Shown piece by piece: positions 1 to 23,358 of a stretch of DNA of 64,000 nucleotides. The notes under the pieces are model-generated. The model saw nothing but the letters and a program-made list of their open reading frames with translations. It had not been told where the DNA came from and did not search any database. Location of the stretch: the NCBI GenBank assembly GCA_022448265.1, contig JAKVCC010000014.1:1-64000 (forward strand), read 5' to 3'. Origin of the DNA: Pirellulales bacterium. GTDB lineage: Bacteria > Planctomycetota > Planctomycetia > Pirellulales > Lacipirellulaceae. The translations under genes and the position numbers were made by a program. Each line of letters begins with the position of its first letter. Within the stretch, counting starts at the first letter, position 1.

Positions 1-268
1 GGCTGCATTAGCGTTTCTCCATGTGACCTGAGATCGGAACTGCCCCAAGTGTATATAAGCGCCTGGGGGGGGGGCAAGGAATTTTTCAGAAATTTTGTAA
101 CAGCACGCGCCAACCACGCTTTTTGCCGAGAAAACGGCCCTTGGTTGGATAAGGCCTGAGGCTGCAATTGGATTGTTGCTAACTCATTGGCCCCGCCGGT
201 GTTGCGGCAGCAGCGGAGCGTTTTGCAGGGGCTTGCGGGCGAGTGCGACTTAGTGCGCAAATGTTCAG

Positions 269-354
269 TAGCCGAGGCGGGACTCGAACCCGCACGGGGG
301 TTACCCCCCACTGGATTTTAAGTCCAGAGCGTCTGCCAATTCCGCCACTCGGCC
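269..354 (-). tRNA. tRNA-Leu (anticodon UAA)
   Basis: The minus strand folds as an 86-nt class II tRNA. The 7-bp acceptor stem GGCCGAG/CTCGGCT has a G-U first pair and discriminator A. The D-arm has the GGCGGAATTGGCAGACGC pattern, the anticodon loop CTTAAAA presents UAA, there is a long variable arm, and the T-loop is TTCGAGT. CCA is not encoded. This tRNA reads UUA and UUG. It lies downstream of leuA on the same strand, about 190 bases after the leuA stop. Confidence 0.95.
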
Positions 355-541: not shown

Positions 542-2092
542 TTACACTGTGCCGCGGCGTCCACTCTCGCTGACGCCAACTTCGATCCGATTGATTGCGT
601 TGAGAAAGGCGCGGGTGGCCGCCTCGACAGTGTCGGTGGAGGCGCCGCGACCGCGGAATAATTGGCCGTTGTAGTCGACCTCGACGAGCGATTCTCCCTG
701 GGCGTCTTTGCCGCGGGTGGCGCTTTGCACGCGGAAGTCGCGGACTACGACCGATTTTCCAGTGAGTTCTTCGATTGCCATGAAGAGGGCGTCTAAGGGA
801 CCGTCACCGCACTTTTTAGTGGTGCTGTACTCTTGGTTACCGCGCGATAAGGTCAATGTGACGGTCGGTGTCTTGCCGTTGGTAGCTTGCACTTCGTAAG
901 TTACCAATTGCCACTGATCGGCTATCTGTGTATTGCGTTGTTCGATGAGCGCTGCAATGTCGCCATCGTAGACTTCCTTCTTTTTGTCGGCCAGGGCCTT
1001 GAAATCCTCGAAGACTGCATCAAGTTGCGCGTCGGCCAGATGATAGCCCAGTGCCCGAGAACGATCGGCGAGCGCTGCCCGCCCGCTATGCTTGCCGAGG
1101 ACTAAATCGGTGTGCGTGAACCCAACGTCCTCGGGCTTCATGATTTCGTAAGTTGTGCGCTCCTTGAGCATGCCATCCTGATGGATGCCAGCTTCGTGGG
1201 CAAATGCATTACGGCCGACGATCGCCTTGTTGCGCTGCACGATCATTCCTGTGATATTCGAAACCAGCCGACTCGTGGGTACGAGGCGGGGCGTATTGAT
1301 GTTGGTCTGCATCTGGTAATAGTCGTTCCGCGTACGGAGTGCCATGACCACTTCTTCCAGAGAACAGTTGCCGGCCCGTTCGCCTAGGCCGTTGATCGTA
1401 CACTCAATTTGGCCCGCCCCATTTTCTACTGCTGCCAAGCTGTTGGAAACTGCCAGTCCTAAGTCGTTGTGGCAGTGTACGCTGATCACCGCAGAATCGA
1501 TATTGGGTACGCGATTGACGAGGTTGCTAATCACACCGGCAAAGTGGGAAGGTGTGGCGTAGCCGACCGTATCAGGAATGTTGACCGTGGTGGCTCCTGC
1601 GCTGATAGCGGCTTCGACAACTTCGCACAAGAAGTCGGATTCTGTTCTCGCCGCATCTTCCGGAGAGAATTCGATATTGTCGCAATAAGTCTTGGCGTGG
1701 CGGACGCTTTCGACGGCCCGGCGGATGATTTCCTGCTTGTCCATCCTCAGTTTGAATTCGCGATGAATTGCGCTGGTGGCGAGAAATACGTGGATCCGCA
1801 CGTTGGAGCCATCTTTCAATGCTTCCCAGGCCCGATCGATGTCAGGCTTGCGGCAGCGGGCCAAACCGCAGATTGTTGCTCCTGGAACGGTGGTGGCAAT
1901 CTCGCGCACCGCTTCAAAATCGCCAACCGAGGTGATGGGAAAACCAGCTTCGATGACATCCACTCCTAGATCGACGAGCGCCTGAGCTACTTCCAGCTTC
2001 TCGTGGAGATTCATGCTGCATCCAGGGGATTGCTCGCCATCGCGGAGCGTTGTGTCGAAGATCGTGATGGGGCGGGAGTTAGGTGGGGACAT
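542..2092 (-). CDS. leuA: 2-isopropylmalate synthase
   Basis: LeuA condenses acetyl-CoA with 2-oxoisovalerate, the committed step of leucine synthesis in the cytoplasm. The 516-residue product has the usual length. It shows the DTTLRDGEQSPG catalytic motif at about residues 13-24, the metal-binding HCHNDLGLAV at 206-215 and GERAGN at 237-242. A C-terminal region of about 130 residues matches the leucine-sensing allosteric domain. The ATG at 2092 gives the normal N-terminus, but no Shine-Dalgarno sequence is evident. Upstream on the same strand lie a terminator and a leucine-rich leader peptide, so transcription attenuation by leucyl-tRNA supply is likely. leuB is about 9 kb away, so the pathway genes are dispersed. 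Confidence 0.97.
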   Translation of the reverse strand: MSPPNSRPITIFDTTLRDGEQSPGCSMNLHEKLEVAQALVDLGVDVIEAGFPITSVGDFEAVREIATTVPGATICGLARCRKPDIDRAWEALKDGSNVRIHVFLATSAIHREFKLRMDKQEIIRRAVESVRHAKTYCDNIEFSPEDAARTESDFLCEVVEAAISAGATTVNIPDTVGYATPSHFAGVISNLVNRVPNIDSAVISVHCHNDLGLAVSNSLAAVENGAGQIECTINGLGERAGNCSLEEVVMALRTRNDYYQMQTNINTPRLVPTSRLVSNITGMIVQRNKAIVGRNAFAHEAGIHQDGMLKERTTYEIMKPEDVGFTHTDLVLGKHSGRAALADRSRALGYHLADAQLDAVFEDFKALADKKKEVYDGDIAALIEQRNTQIADQWQLVTYEVQATNGKTPTVTLTLSRGNQEYSTTKKCGDGPLDALFMAIEELTGKSVVVRDFRVQSATRGKDAQGESLVEVDYNGQLFRGRGASTDTVEAATRAFLNAINRIEVGVSESGRRGTV

Positions 2093-2175: not shown

Positions 2176-2207
2176 AAAAAACCCCGAAGCTAGTAGGCCT
2201 CAGGGTT
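2176..2207 (-). terminator. Intrinsic terminator in the leuA leader (attenuator)
   Basis: On the minus strand an 11-bp stem (AACCCUGAGGC with GCUUCGGGGUU, including two G-U pairs) closes a CUACUA loop and is followed by six U. It lies after the leucine-rich leader peptide and before leuA, with no gene between, so its natural role is conditional termination of leuA transcription. The 5' arm AGAACCC (2203-2209) can instead pair with GGGUUCU (2232-2238) just after the leader stop codon, a candidate antiterminator. Confidence 0.85.
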
Positions 2208-2245
2208 CTGGTTTGTGATGGAATTGTGAAAAGAACCCAGCCGTG

Positions 2246-2317
2246 TTATCGGCTATTTAGCCCACTCTTGGGTAAGAGTAGTAGTAATGGCAGGGATAAT
2301 AGAAAGGCTGCAATCAT
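2246..2317 (-). CDS. Leucine-rich leader peptide of leuA
   Basis: This is a 23-codon ORF starting at ATG (2317) and ending at TAA (2246). Nine of the 23 residues are leucine, five of them consecutive (codons TTA CTA CTA CTC TTA), and most of the codons are CTA or TTA. It sits about 40 bases before the terminator and upstream of leuA on the same strand. This is the standard arrangement of an amino-acid attenuation peptide, in which ribosome stalling at leucine codons reports low charged tRNA-Leu. A small hairpin AGCCG/CGGCT (2239-2254) overlaps the stop codon and may act as pause or protector. No Shine-Dalgarno sequence is seen. A longer ORF in the same frame extends upstream but lacks comparable bias. 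Confidence 0.75.
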   Translation of the reverse strand: MIAAFLLSLPLLLLLPKSGLNSR

Positions 2318-2361
2318 TGTTTTGTCGGTTGCGTGGGGCGGTCGATCCCAGGGAAGTGATT

Positions 2362-2395
2362 GCCAGTAACAGGTAGCCAGTAACGGGTAGCCAGT
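2362..2395. repeat. 14-bp tandem repeat, about 2.4 copies, in the leuA leader
   Basis: Two 14-bp units (gccagtaacaggta and gccagtaacgggta) differing at one base are followed by a partial third unit. The repeat lies between the putative leuA promoter and the leader peptide, so it would be transcribed into the leuA leader RNA. Confidence 0.85.
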
Positions 2396-2475
2396 GCGGC
2401 TCCTCCATGGTTTGCCCACTGAGCGGCCGCGCCATAAATAATCTGCGCGCCGTTTAGATTCTGCCACTAGTTTAC

Positions 2476-2504
2476 ACTCTATCTGATGTGGCTACGCAGG
2501 TCAA
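2476..2504 (-). promoter_or_regulatory. Putative sigma70-type promoter of the leuA leader
   Basis: The minus strand reads TTGACC (2499-2504), a 17-base spacer, then TAGAGT (2476-2481). The -35 box matches consensus at 5 of 6 positions and the -10 at 4 of 6, with ideal spacing. Transcription would start near 2468 and run through the tandem repeat, leader peptide and attenuator into leuA. Confidence 0.6.
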
Positions 2505-16692: not shown

Positions 16693-19020
16693 TTAGATGT
16701 CGTGCGAACCGTTTGAGTTTTCAATCATCTTAACTGTCAACGGGGATGGCATATCAAGATGCACGTCGCTCTGCGGAAAGGCAATGACGATGCCTTCTTC
16801 GCGGAATAGCTGATCGATCCGGAATCGAACTGCGCTTTCAACTTGCAATTGGTCCATTATGACCCGCATATGCATCCAAAAATGCACCTCGAATATGAGT
16901 GCACTGTTTCCAAAGCTTTTGAACAAAATGATCGGTGGTGGGTCCTTGGCAACGCGACCAGTTTCAACCGCTGCTCGACGCAGGAGCTGGGTCACCGTCA
17001 CGGTCGGAGAACCGTAGGCGACACCTACGTCGACGAAGGTGCGCACCTTGTTACTCGAAAGCGTAAAGTTGATGACATTGCCCTGCAGGAAGGAGCTGTT
17101 GGGGACAATGATTTCCAAGTTGCTACCGGTACGCACCCGCGTGCTGCGGGCACCAATGTGCTCAATATTTCCGTAAAAGTCGTTTATCTGCACGAGATCG
17201 CCAACTTTTACCGGGCGCTCGGCCATCAGCACCAGACCGCTGATGAAATTATTGATGATGTTTTGGCTGCCAAAACCGATGCCCAATGCAACGGCACCCC
17301 CCAAGACAGTAAATGCGGTCAATGGGACTTTGGCTACGTTGAGCGCAAACAGCCCAAACATGACAAGCAGTGTGTAGTAGAACAGCGATTGAATCGTCGC
17401 TGACGCACTGGGGTCGATATCGAGCCGACGGAGTACCTGGCGACGCAAGGCTCTACTCAAGGCTTTCGACACGAACAGGCCTGCCAAGAGGACGAGTAGG
17501 GCTGTCAGCACTTTTTGTACGGTAACTGACCTGTCCCCAAACGAAGTTAACTCGAAGTGCCAAACTTTGCCAATGAGATTCCAGAGGTCTGACAAACGAT
17601 CTTTGGCAGTGACTGCCAGAGAGTCACTTTGCATTTCACCCAGTAGCTTGCGATCCAATCGCATGCTCGCTCGGATGCTGCTTAGGTTTTGTTCCTCTGT
17701 CTCCTGCAAGATGCGCAGGCTGGTGATCTGCTGCTTAATCCAGTTGGCGTCGGTAGATTGCTGGGAGACTTCCTTTTGACGCTCCTTCAAAGGTGTGAGA
17801 TCATTTCTCAGATCCTCGATTTTCTCGATTGCGGCCTGTTCCTCACGCCCCAATTGTCCGAGAGATTTTTCAGAGTCTTCAAGCCAATGCCTAATATCTT
17901 CGCGACTAGGCCGGCCGCTATAGATGTGCTGGCGGCGTTTCCAACTCTTGCGATCGGAGTCCAACCGCCCTAATCGTTCTTTCAGGATCTCCAAGCGGTC
18001 CTGGATCACCCGGATTCTTAGATCGTAAGCGGCAAGTTCTTCGTCCAATGCTGCACGATTGCCAGCGGAGTTTTTCAACTCCCGTTGCGCGCGGATCTTC
18101 CGAGCCTTTATCTCTTTGAGTTCTTCGTCGCCTGTCGCCTTCGTCTTGGCAATGTCGTTTTCCAGGTCGTCCTCACGACGATCAATGTCCATAAGTATTT
18201 CGTTGAGTTCCGCAGTGCCAAAGATGGCCCGCGTTCGCATGCGTGCAGCTCTTTCCTTCAGCAAATCAACCCGCAATCGTTGCCGGAGTACCTCTTGCTC
18301 AGCGTTATTTTTTTCTTCTTTGCGAAGTGCGGATAACTCTTCTGCAGCTTCGCTGAGAAGTTCGGCCTCTGCAAGTCGCTCTCCTAGTTGTTGCCGTAAG
18401 GCGTCGTTATCATTTTGCTCGACCTTTGCGAGACTTCGCCGGCGGGCGCTGCTCTGCTCCCTGGCTTCCTGCTGGGCTTGCTCAAATGCAGCGAGCGCCG
18501 TTTTTTCCTTGCGGACAATCCGCTCTAAGCGTCGCAATTCCGTTTCGAGTTCATTGCGCTCCTCATCAAGCCTGAGAAAGGTAATGCGTTCGCCTTCACT
18601 AAAACCGCGCCGAAGAAAGGCATCCAATCCCGCTTGCAGCTGCGATAGATCCGCCTTGTTTTTCTCTGCAACTTCTTGTTCGGTTGCATGTTGAGACAGG
18701 AGCGTCTCGATGCGCGTTAGCAACTCAACTTGGCGCGTTAGCGCGGCGGGCGGTTCAGTGGCTTGGTCAGATTCCATTTGTTGAATGCTCTGCTCAACAC
18801 GTTTCAGACGCTCGTTCACGTCCTTCCGTCGTTCCGCAACAGAGTTTGTTTCTTCTTGTTTTTCTGGGGCCTTTTTGGGTTTTGTAAGCTGAAGTGTCGG
18901 CGGGACCTGTGCCTGTGCCAGGTGCTCAGAAGAATAGAGCCAGCAGGTGGCGGCGACCGCCACTATGATGGCGGCAACGAACTTGCTAGTCCGGCGGTGG
19001 TGATTGATTTGGGTGAACAT
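16693..19020 (-). CDS. Large MscS-family mechanosensitive channel with periplasmic coiled coil
   Basis: The 775-residue protein has an N-terminal signal-like hydrophobic segment (about residues 14-33). Some 430 residues of heptad-rich, charged helix follow, then membrane helices starting near 485, and a C-terminal MscS domain. The pore helix region GGAVALGIGFGSQNIINNFI, the beta domain with VKVGDLVQI and IVPNSSFLQGNVINF are clear. The layout matches MscK/YjeP-type channels rather than the small MscS. It would release solutes on hypo-osmotic shock. It is a single gene, convergent with no other intact gene. Confidence 0.9.
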   Translation of the reverse strand: MFTQINHHRRTSKFVAAIIVAVAATCWLYSSEHLAQAQVPPTLQLTKPKKAPEKQEETNSVAERRKDVNERLKRVEQSIQQMESDQATEPPAALTRQVELLTRIETLLSQHATEQEVAEKNKADLSQLQAGLDAFLRRGFSEGERITFLRLDEERNELETELRRLERIVRKEKTALAAFEQAQQEAREQSSARRRSLAKVEQNDNDALRQQLGERLAEAELLSEAAEELSALRKEEKNNAEQEVLRQRLRVDLLKERAARMRTRAIFGTAELNEILMDIDRREDDLENDIAKTKATGDEELKEIKARKIRAQRELKNSAGNRAALDEELAAYDLRIRVIQDRLEILKERLGRLDSDRKSWKRRQHIYSGRPSREDIRHWLEDSEKSLGQLGREEQAAIEKIEDLRNDLTPLKERQKEVSQQSTDANWIKQQITSLRILQETEEQNLSSIRASMRLDRKLLGEMQSDSLAVTAKDRLSDLWNLIGKVWHFELTSFGDRSVTVQKVLTALLVLLAGLFVSKALSRALRRQVLRRLDIDPSASATIQSLFYYTLLVMFGLFALNVAKVPLTAFTVLGGAVALGIGFGSQNIINNFISGLVLMAERPVKVGDLVQINDFYGNIEHIGARSTRVRTGSNLEIIVPNSSFLQGNVINFTLSSNKVRTFVDVGVAYGSPTVTVTQLLRRAAVETGRVAKDPPPIILFKSFGNSALIFEVHFWMHMRVIMDQLQVESAVRFRIDQLFREEGIVIAFPQSDVHLDMPSPLTVKMIENSNGSHDI

Positions 19021-19679
19021 TTTTGGAGCTTGTTAGCGCAGGGTACCGTTTGATAACGGGCTGCAAGGCTTGCGGGCGGCGACAACTTAAAAGGATATCC
19101 GCAACCATCGCTGCCACAAACAGCAGCTACACCTTGGGCGCCGGGTACGGATCAAGCAGGCCCCTCGGCGTGAGGGGCGCCCTACTACTTATCCAGACTA
19201 ATTACAGATAGCTGGTTTGCAGAATGCAATCTTCTGAAGCGGATTCGATCGTAGTGGCTGGCGCAGTTGTAAGGCCCACTTTTGCTATGCAATGGGTTCT
19301 GGTCGGTAGGATAGGGGCTCATTCGTTTGCGGGGTGGGGCGAGGCAATTCTCGCGGTAATCTGCTCTGTAATCGCCACGGTATTCGCTACTGAACGAGTC
19401 ACTAGTGCGCGTGACCGCAATCATTGGAGGGGGCCCTCTTCCTAGCCACGCCTGAATTGGAGCCCCTTGTTTCCCTGCGACATCTCTGAATTTTTTTCTA
19501 ACGTCTTGTTCCAGACGCGTCGCATGCGCGGCTCGGCTTTCCCCTGGCCGCTCAATAAAGATGAGACCTGGGTATCCTTCACCCGCAAGGAGCCCTCCTG
19601 GCATCGCACGATTTGGGATGTCTAGTCACGTTTTTTGCAAAAGATCGTGTTGTGATCCAAGCAATTCCCAAATTTAGCG
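19021..19679. other. Long intergenic region between mscS and the 16S unit
   Basis: A 139-codon minus-strand frame (19185-19604) gives a Pro/Arg/Ser-rich translation without recognisable domains. I regard it as non-coding. No RNA gene is visible. Confidence 0.35.
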
Positions 19680-19811
19680 CTAGGTATTCAGGTTGACTGT
19701 GACGTTTTCAACGACTTCCATCATTTGTTTCTCGATCTCAAGTTGATGCTTTACGCGTGCGCCGATCATATTTGCGGAGACGAGCCGGTCGTCGGGAAGA
19801 GCGATCAAGCT
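19680..19811 (-). pseudogene. Possible C-terminal remnant of an unknown gene
   Basis: The minus strand reads SLIALPDDRLVSANMIGARV, then KHQLEIEKQMMEVVENVTVN and LNT before a TAG. It is a clean amphipathic stretch of 43 codons unlike the stop-rich frame before it. From the internal ATG it would be a 29-residue peptide. It could be a small ORF or the surviving tail of a larger gene. I cannot name a family. Confidence 0.3.
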
Positions 19812-20009
19812 CGTCGGCGTGCACGATTACAATTGCTATGTGATCTTTTGGGTGCGCCGTATAAGTATTTTGACGAACCGACTGGGGGGCTGTTTTGGTT
19901 CGTCTTGAGCAAGCCGTCAATTGCGGAGGGAATTTTCCGAAGGGGGCATCTGTGGCAGCCCCGTCCATGCGGCCGTGATCGATCCGACCAAGTTAGAGGA
20001 CTCGCGCGC

Positions 20010-20053
20010 AAAAAAAAACCCGGCACAGGAAGGCTAATCCCTGTACCGGGTTT
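20010..20053 (-). terminator. Intrinsic terminator of the 16S rRNA unit
   Basis: On the minus strand ACCCGGTACAGG pairs with CCTGTGCCGGGT with one mismatch, followed by nine U. It lies about 180 bases after the 16S 3' end and before any other gene, so it ends a 16S-only transcript. Confidence 0.85.
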
Positions 20054-20229
20054 CTCAATATCAATTCGGCAGTTGCTGTGCCCAGCCCCGAAAGGCCTGA
20101 CTCAGCCGACTTCTATGCCAATCACAAGGACTGTCCCCATTTATTGATTCAACCGTCACCGGTTGGAACCATTTCATCACCGTGTTGCCAGGAGACACCG
20201 AAGCGTTTCCCGGCCGATGACGTTCTAAT

Positions 20230-21780
<1,551 letters not shown>

Positions 21781-23273: not shown

Positions 23274-23358
23274 TACCGGAGAGAGGATTTGAACCTCCAC
23301 GCCCATTACGGGCACATGGACCTGAACCATGCGCGTCTGCCAATTCCGCCACTCCGGC
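23274..23358 (-). tRNA. tRNA-Leu (anticodon CAG)
   Basis: An 85-nt class II tRNA on the minus strand has acceptor stem GCCGGAG/CTCCGGT, discriminator A, D-arm GGCGGAATTGGCAGACGC, and anticodon stem CATGG/CCATG with loop TTCAGGT presenting CAG. It also has a long variable arm and T-loop TTCAAAT. CCA is not encoded. It reads CUG. Confidence 0.95.

Follow-up and report, generated by a model that had tools for sequence, protein, structure and literature searches.

Introduction

The window, by which we mean the whole 64,000-nucleotide stretch of DNA analysed here, carries a leuA gene on its minus strand that is preceded by a short, leucine-rich open reading frame and an intrinsic terminator. This arrangement raises the question whether leuA is controlled by leucine through a translating ribosome that decides between two RNA folds, as an earlier note on this DNA had proposed. 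A paper of 2010 stated that leader-peptide attenuation was not known beyond the Proteobacteria and Actinobacteria, besides the new Firmicutes case that it described (PMC2965389). No report of such attenuation in planctomycetes was found in the open-access literature, to which the search was confined. Here we present a description of the leader region and a comparison with related leuA loci. The proposal is supported by conservation of the leader, covariation of the helices, a bias towards CTA codons and an isoleucine version of the element at cimA. On these grounds we regard the element, with high confidence, as a ribosome-mediated transcription attenuator that senses charged tRNA-Leu; the leader and its competing hairpins very probably turn leuA on when leucine is short.

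Organization of the leuA locus

The features of the locus are summarized in Table 1. The gene under control is a true 2-isopropylmalate synthase gene, with scores of 762 bits for NF002086 and 717 bits for TIGR00973 (NCBIfam profiles). The parts listed in the earlier note were all located on the minus strand. The promoter consists of TTGACC (2504-2499) and TAGAGT (2481-2476) with a spacer of 17 nt. Taken alone, this match is at chance level (1 found vs. 0.9 expected in the promoter scan); the pattern TTGACN-17-TANANT recurs 5' of the leader in most near relatives, where it lies closer to the leader than in the window. The promoter-leader interval of the window is unusually long and includes an imperfect tandem repeat, ACTGGCTACCYGTT, with about 2.7 copies at 2395-2358 (minus strand).

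The leader of 23 codons, read from the ATG at 2317 to the TAA at 2246, encodes the peptide MIAAFLLSLPLLLLLPKSGLNSR with the nine leucines attributed to it (four CTA, three TTA, one CTG and one CTC). A hairpin inside the leader, P1, is an element additional to those listed before. The hairpin reported at the leader stop is present (AGCCG/CGGCT, 2254-2239), but as an insertion that was unseen in the other rows of a 71-sequence alignment and is outside the conserved core. The alternative pairing was also found as described, GGGTTCT (2238-2232) being complementary to AGAACCC (2209-2203), and so was the terminator, AGAACCCTGAGGC-CTACTA-GCTTCGGGGTTTT at 2209-2178 with six T at 2181-2176. Since leuA starts at 2092, no gene intervenes between it and the leader. 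The promoter scan yielded no match between the terminator and leuA, the interval in which a transcript start had been named as speaking against attenuation. The leader RNA of 161 nt is more stable than all 200 of 200 dinucleotide shuffles (z -3.5).

Table 1. Features of the leuA locus in the window and the related site upstream of cimA.
Feature	Position	Strand	Basis
leuA, 2-isopropylmalate synthase, gene under control	542..2092	-	NCBIfam NF002086 and TIGR00973, above cut-off
tRNA-Leu(UAA), downstream of leuA, same strand	268..354	-	same order and strand in 15 relatives
Sigma-70-type promoter, TTGACC-17-TAGAGT	2476..2504	-	sequence; same pattern in relatives
Leader ORF, 23 codons, stop TAA	2246..2317	-	sequence, fold, homologous leaders in relatives
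Putative sensing Leu codons 6, 7, 9, 11-15	2273..2302	-	Leu position counts, CTA bias, mostly synonymous change
Additional Leu codon CTA, codon 20	2260-2258	-	leader ORF
P1 hairpin, CUACUCUU-ACCC-AAGAGUGG, 5' arm within the last Leu codons	2262..2281	-	folds; covariation
Inserted hairpin AGCCG-AUAACA-CGGCU, spanning the leader stop	2239..2254	-	sequence; folds as third arm of the antiterminator junction
Antiterminator 5' strand, GGGUUCU	2232..2238	-	pairs with 2209-2203; helix covaries in relatives
Antiterminator 3' strand, AGAACCC, also terminator 5' arm	2203..2209	-	pairing, covariation
Intrinsic terminator, 13 pairs (scan), loop CUACUA, U tract	2176..2209	-	scan; covariation
Ile-rich leader and terminator of the same design, upstream of cimA	G000:C56:206227-206355 (L256)		covariance model

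Conservation in planctomycetes

The leuA loci compared come from relatives within the window's genus, family, order and phylum, and also from named public contigs. The nearest named relatives of the window are Planctomycetota and Pirellulales MAGs, which agrees with the planctomycete origin that the earlier note thought probable, and many of the relatives are metagenome assemblies. A detector that demands a Leu-rich short ORF, followed by an intrinsic terminator within 120 nt, was positive in 140 of the 190 planctomycete sequences taken from upstream of leuA; on the same 190 regions it gave no hit on the reverse strand and none in dinucleotide shuffles. Among the remaining loci of the genome_contigs set, which are mostly non-planctomycete, 3 of 59 leuA upstream regions were positive. 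By manual count, 33 of the 34 members sampled within the window's own family have leader and terminator. None of seven sampled members of another family of the same order was positive with the detector, and about a quarter of the sampled planctomycete leuA upstream regions are without a detectable copy. The earlier note had looked to the leuA upstream regions of relatives for a decision, holding that a lack of conservation of leader and stems would count against attenuation; in these relatives both leader and stems are conserved, and the stems covary. Changes in Leu codons between relatives are synonymous in 185 cases vs. 95 that are not.

Three of the leuA matches contain one in-frame stop each, namely G351:C1:571005-572537 (TGA), G378:C1:661387-662919 (TGA) and G190:C16:885829-887331 (TAG). 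In G039:C241, two leuA matches of equal score (16866-18368, minus strand, and 18869-20371, plus strand) are inverted relative to each other with about 500 bases between them, which may be an artefact of assembly.

Helices and covariation

Covariation was read from the alignment of 71 sequences. These were chosen for a detected leader and terminator, so that 94.8%, the share of terminator cells that are paired, describes the detected set; compensatory changes occur at 7 of 12 terminator pairs, a count which, like those below, is inflated by the relatedness of the sequences (t values, too, take related sequences to be independent). Conservation and covariation within the element are strongest in the terminator. 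In the antiterminator, UAGGGUUCGU with ACGAACCCUG, 6 of 10 pairs show compensatory changes, and the helix, which can be extended through the last leader codon, covaries. The complementarity of its strands is 15.8 within species, vs. 14.3 +/- 0.23 when strands are paired across species. P1 has compensatory changes at all six of its six pairs, and its 3' arm stops just short of the leader stop. Compared with shuffles across relatives, the P1 region of the leader is more stable and the region of the stop has less structure. Apart from leader, antiterminator strands and terminator, no conserved core was seen in the alignment.

Control of leuA at the level of translation, or else by a protein or a pseudoknot, with the terminator being incidental, has been proposed in a comparable form for the actinobacterial LEU element, which shares with the locus a Leu-rich leader ORF before leuA; the actinobacterial leaders have Leu runs, and were judged to work otherwise than by classical attenuation (PMC1262725). 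The LEU element is described as a pseudoknot in which the base stem pairs the Leu run with the Shine-Dalgarno box of leuA (PMC1262725). In contrast, no stretch complementary to the Leu run was seen just 5' of the leuA start upon inspection of the sequence of the window, and here a terminator is paired with an antiterminator. An incidental terminator is at odds with its being the best conserved and covarying part, and with a 5' arm that it has in common with a covarying antiterminator. Of the explanations that compete with attenuation this one survives best, and it is nevertheless improbable.

A conserved helix that masks the antiterminator strand was looked for in the relatives, and none was found. 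No covariation was found for CCUG (leader) with UAGG (stop), a candidate for such a masking hairpin. There is a weak, small excess of leader/antiterminator complementarity, and in folding the full-length RNA of the window is able to pair part of the antiterminator strand. With no masking helix seen to be conserved, the leader RNA might read through when it is not translated, in contrast to the leaders of enteric bacteria.

Leader stop, spacing and codon choice

The leader stop is TAG in 117 of 138 leaders, and GG follows in 99. In most relatives the stop (usually UAG) sits within the antiterminator strand, where UAGGGUUCG pairs with CGAACCCUG. In the window, by contrast, about 20 nt (AAATAGCCGATAACACGGCT) are inserted, which shifts the stop by a few codons, to a UAA 8 nt before GGGUUCU. 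Leucine is frequent from codon -6 back to codon -14, counted from the stop, and infrequent at -1 to -3; its fraction is 0.67 at -6, 0.20 at -5 and at most 0.06 at -3 to -1, and the commonest place for the last Leu codon is six codons before the stop. The earlier note had placed most of the leucine codons about 25-60 bases before the stop and had left unsettled which structure a stalled ribosome would expose. The spacing in the relatives largely answers this point: since the stop is inside the antiterminator strand, a ribosome that finishes the leader would cover the strand, and one stalled at the Leu codons would leave it free.

The codons themselves are biased. CTA makes up 29.6% of the Leu codons in leaders vs. 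1.2% in leuA itself, which agrees with CUA usage in the leu leader of S. typhimurium and with the theory of sensing codons (PMC1183508).

Proposed mechanism

The locus combines a leader ORF with codons for the end product, a terminator before the structural gene, and an antiterminator that excludes the terminator by way of the shared 5' arm. RNA polymerase would start at the upstream promoter and a ribosome would translate the leader. With ample leucine, the ribosome would reach the leader stop and cover the future antiterminator strand, upon which the terminator would fold and transcription would end before leuA. With charged tRNA-Leu in short supply, it would stall in the Leu run and leave the strand free to pair with the terminator's 5' arm, and transcription would continue into leuA. 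We infer that the leader is translated and that ribosomes stall in it, and likewise the efficiency of termination and the response to leucine.

The choice between the helices was modelled for the window by folding with ribosome footprints, the lengths of which are general knowledge. With the ribosome stalled at codon 15, the RNA that precedes the 3' arm of the terminator folds as the antiterminator (-19.3 kcal/mol), and so it does with the ribosome at codon 20 (-13.5 kcal/mol); in these folds of the window, the inserted stop hairpin is a third arm, flanked by the two antiterminator halves. When the ribosome is placed at the stop, there is no antiterminator (-1.6 kcal/mol) and the terminator forms (-19.3 kcal/mol). 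Leu spacing and footprint folding agree, within the model, that the position of the ribosome would choose the helix. Because, with a complete leader, the terminator always comes out as the more stable of the two folds, the antiterminator would have to win by forming first, its 5' strand being made first.

Isoleucine version before cimA

Attenuators of other pathways were sought with a covariance model of the leuA leader, which was run on the window's genome, and with one motif pattern. One more significant site was found in this genome (E 3e-4), directly before the citramalate synthase gene cimA (TIGR00977); citramalate synthase is the first enzyme of an isoleucine route. The leader at this site reads ...GTITIIIAPLP and is accompanied by UAGGGUUUGG and the terminator arm CCAAGCCCUGAGGCC. 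Seventeen cimA leaders were collected, 15 with the detector on 30 upstream regions and two by pattern search, and all 17 are Ile-rich. At positions -14 to -4 they have 38% Ile and 0.6% Leu, vs. 61% Leu and 0.9% Ile in the leuA leaders, a comparison in which the near-absence of Leu from the cimA leaders is the fair contrast, the leuA set having been selected for Leu and the cimA candidates for their content of Ile, Val or Leu. That the codon run changes with the pathway while the RNA scaffold stays the same strongly supports sensing through translation, and the leuA/cimA pair amounts to a natural codon-exchange experiment. The same terminator detector found no such leader in 30 ilvB loci. Two weak hits of the covariance model in the same genome (L257 and L258; E 2 and 3.7) are chance-like, and no terminator was seen in their sequence.

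The exchange of Leu for Ile at cimA is unexpected if the short ORF is the gene of a small hydrophobic peptide that has a function of its own and is followed by the terminator of that gene. The leader peptides are indeed strongly hydrophobic, but neither the bias towards rare codons nor a stop inside the antiterminator strand would be expected of such a gene, which makes this explanation very improbable.

Comparison with known systems

The proposed attenuation of leuA in the window follows the principle of trp, his and leu attenuation. In the E. coli trp attenuator, the leader hairpin I:II masks segment II, whereas P1 of the planctomycetes ends just before the antiterminator core and does not share it. 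The two would be alike in that a ribosome reading towards the stop blocks the antiterminator and an upstream stall permits it (PMC1183508 for trp). The enterobacterial leu attenuator (RF00512) likewise has a leader peptide with Leu codons (CUA in S. typhimurium, PMC1183508), an antiterminator opposed to an intrinsic terminator, and leuA downstream. It differs from the planctomycete element, in which the stop is in or next to the antiterminator strand, no conserved masking hairpin was found, and a sister leader with Ile codons serves cimA. The ilvB-II uORF attenuator of Corynebacterium (PMC10272879) is similar in its uORF rich in branched-chain codons, its terminator and antiterminator, and a start and stop in frame. 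Its target is ilvBNC, and the antiterminator draws on part of the loop in a stem that spans the uORF (PMC10272879); the ilvB loci tested in planctomycetes are without such a leader.

The element matches none of the Rfam families, the enteric Leu_leader included: RF00512 had no match above the gathering cut-off in 29 genomes and none in the leader region of the window.

In other phyla, T-boxes can control amino-acid genes. A T-box or a riboswitch that senses uncharged tRNA or leucine directly is nonetheless the least probable explanation, as the T-box covariance model has no match in the leader region or in 13 loci, no Rfam family matches the leader region with an E of 5 or less, no leader family reaches the gathering score in the 13 loci, and the alignment shows no conserved core besides leader, antiterminator strands and terminator.

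Ribosome-mediated attenuation at leuA would imply that transcription and translation are coupled in planctomycetes closely enough for a ribosome to direct RNA polymerase, a testable implication that is of note given the unusual internal membranes of these bacteria.

Downstream genes and other RNA genes of the window

In 15 relatives a tRNA-Leu(UAA) gene lies 3' of leuA as in the window (L003-L008, L011, L013-L016, L120, L121, L149 and L151). The gap between the two genes is without a terminator or promoter pattern in 15 of 16 cases (the window and the 15 relatives), and the tRNA may be co-transcribed with leuA by read-through. We only tentatively consider, as a rather unlikely extension of the attenuation model, that the element forms a planctomycete class of its own. 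In such a class, the UAG stop would be part of an unmasked antiterminator strand, and leader RNA that is not translated would read through, opposite to the default in enterics. A single scaffold would serve leuA with Leu codons and cimA with Ile codons, and transcripts running past leuA would provide tRNA-Leu(UAA) as well, the reader of the UUA codons in the leader.

Two further RNA genes were observed in the window. The 16S rRNA gene at 20239-21779 (minus strand) is apparently unlinked, because no 23S or 5S match occurs anywhere in the 64 kb. A tRNA-Leu(CAG) gene is located at 23274-23358.
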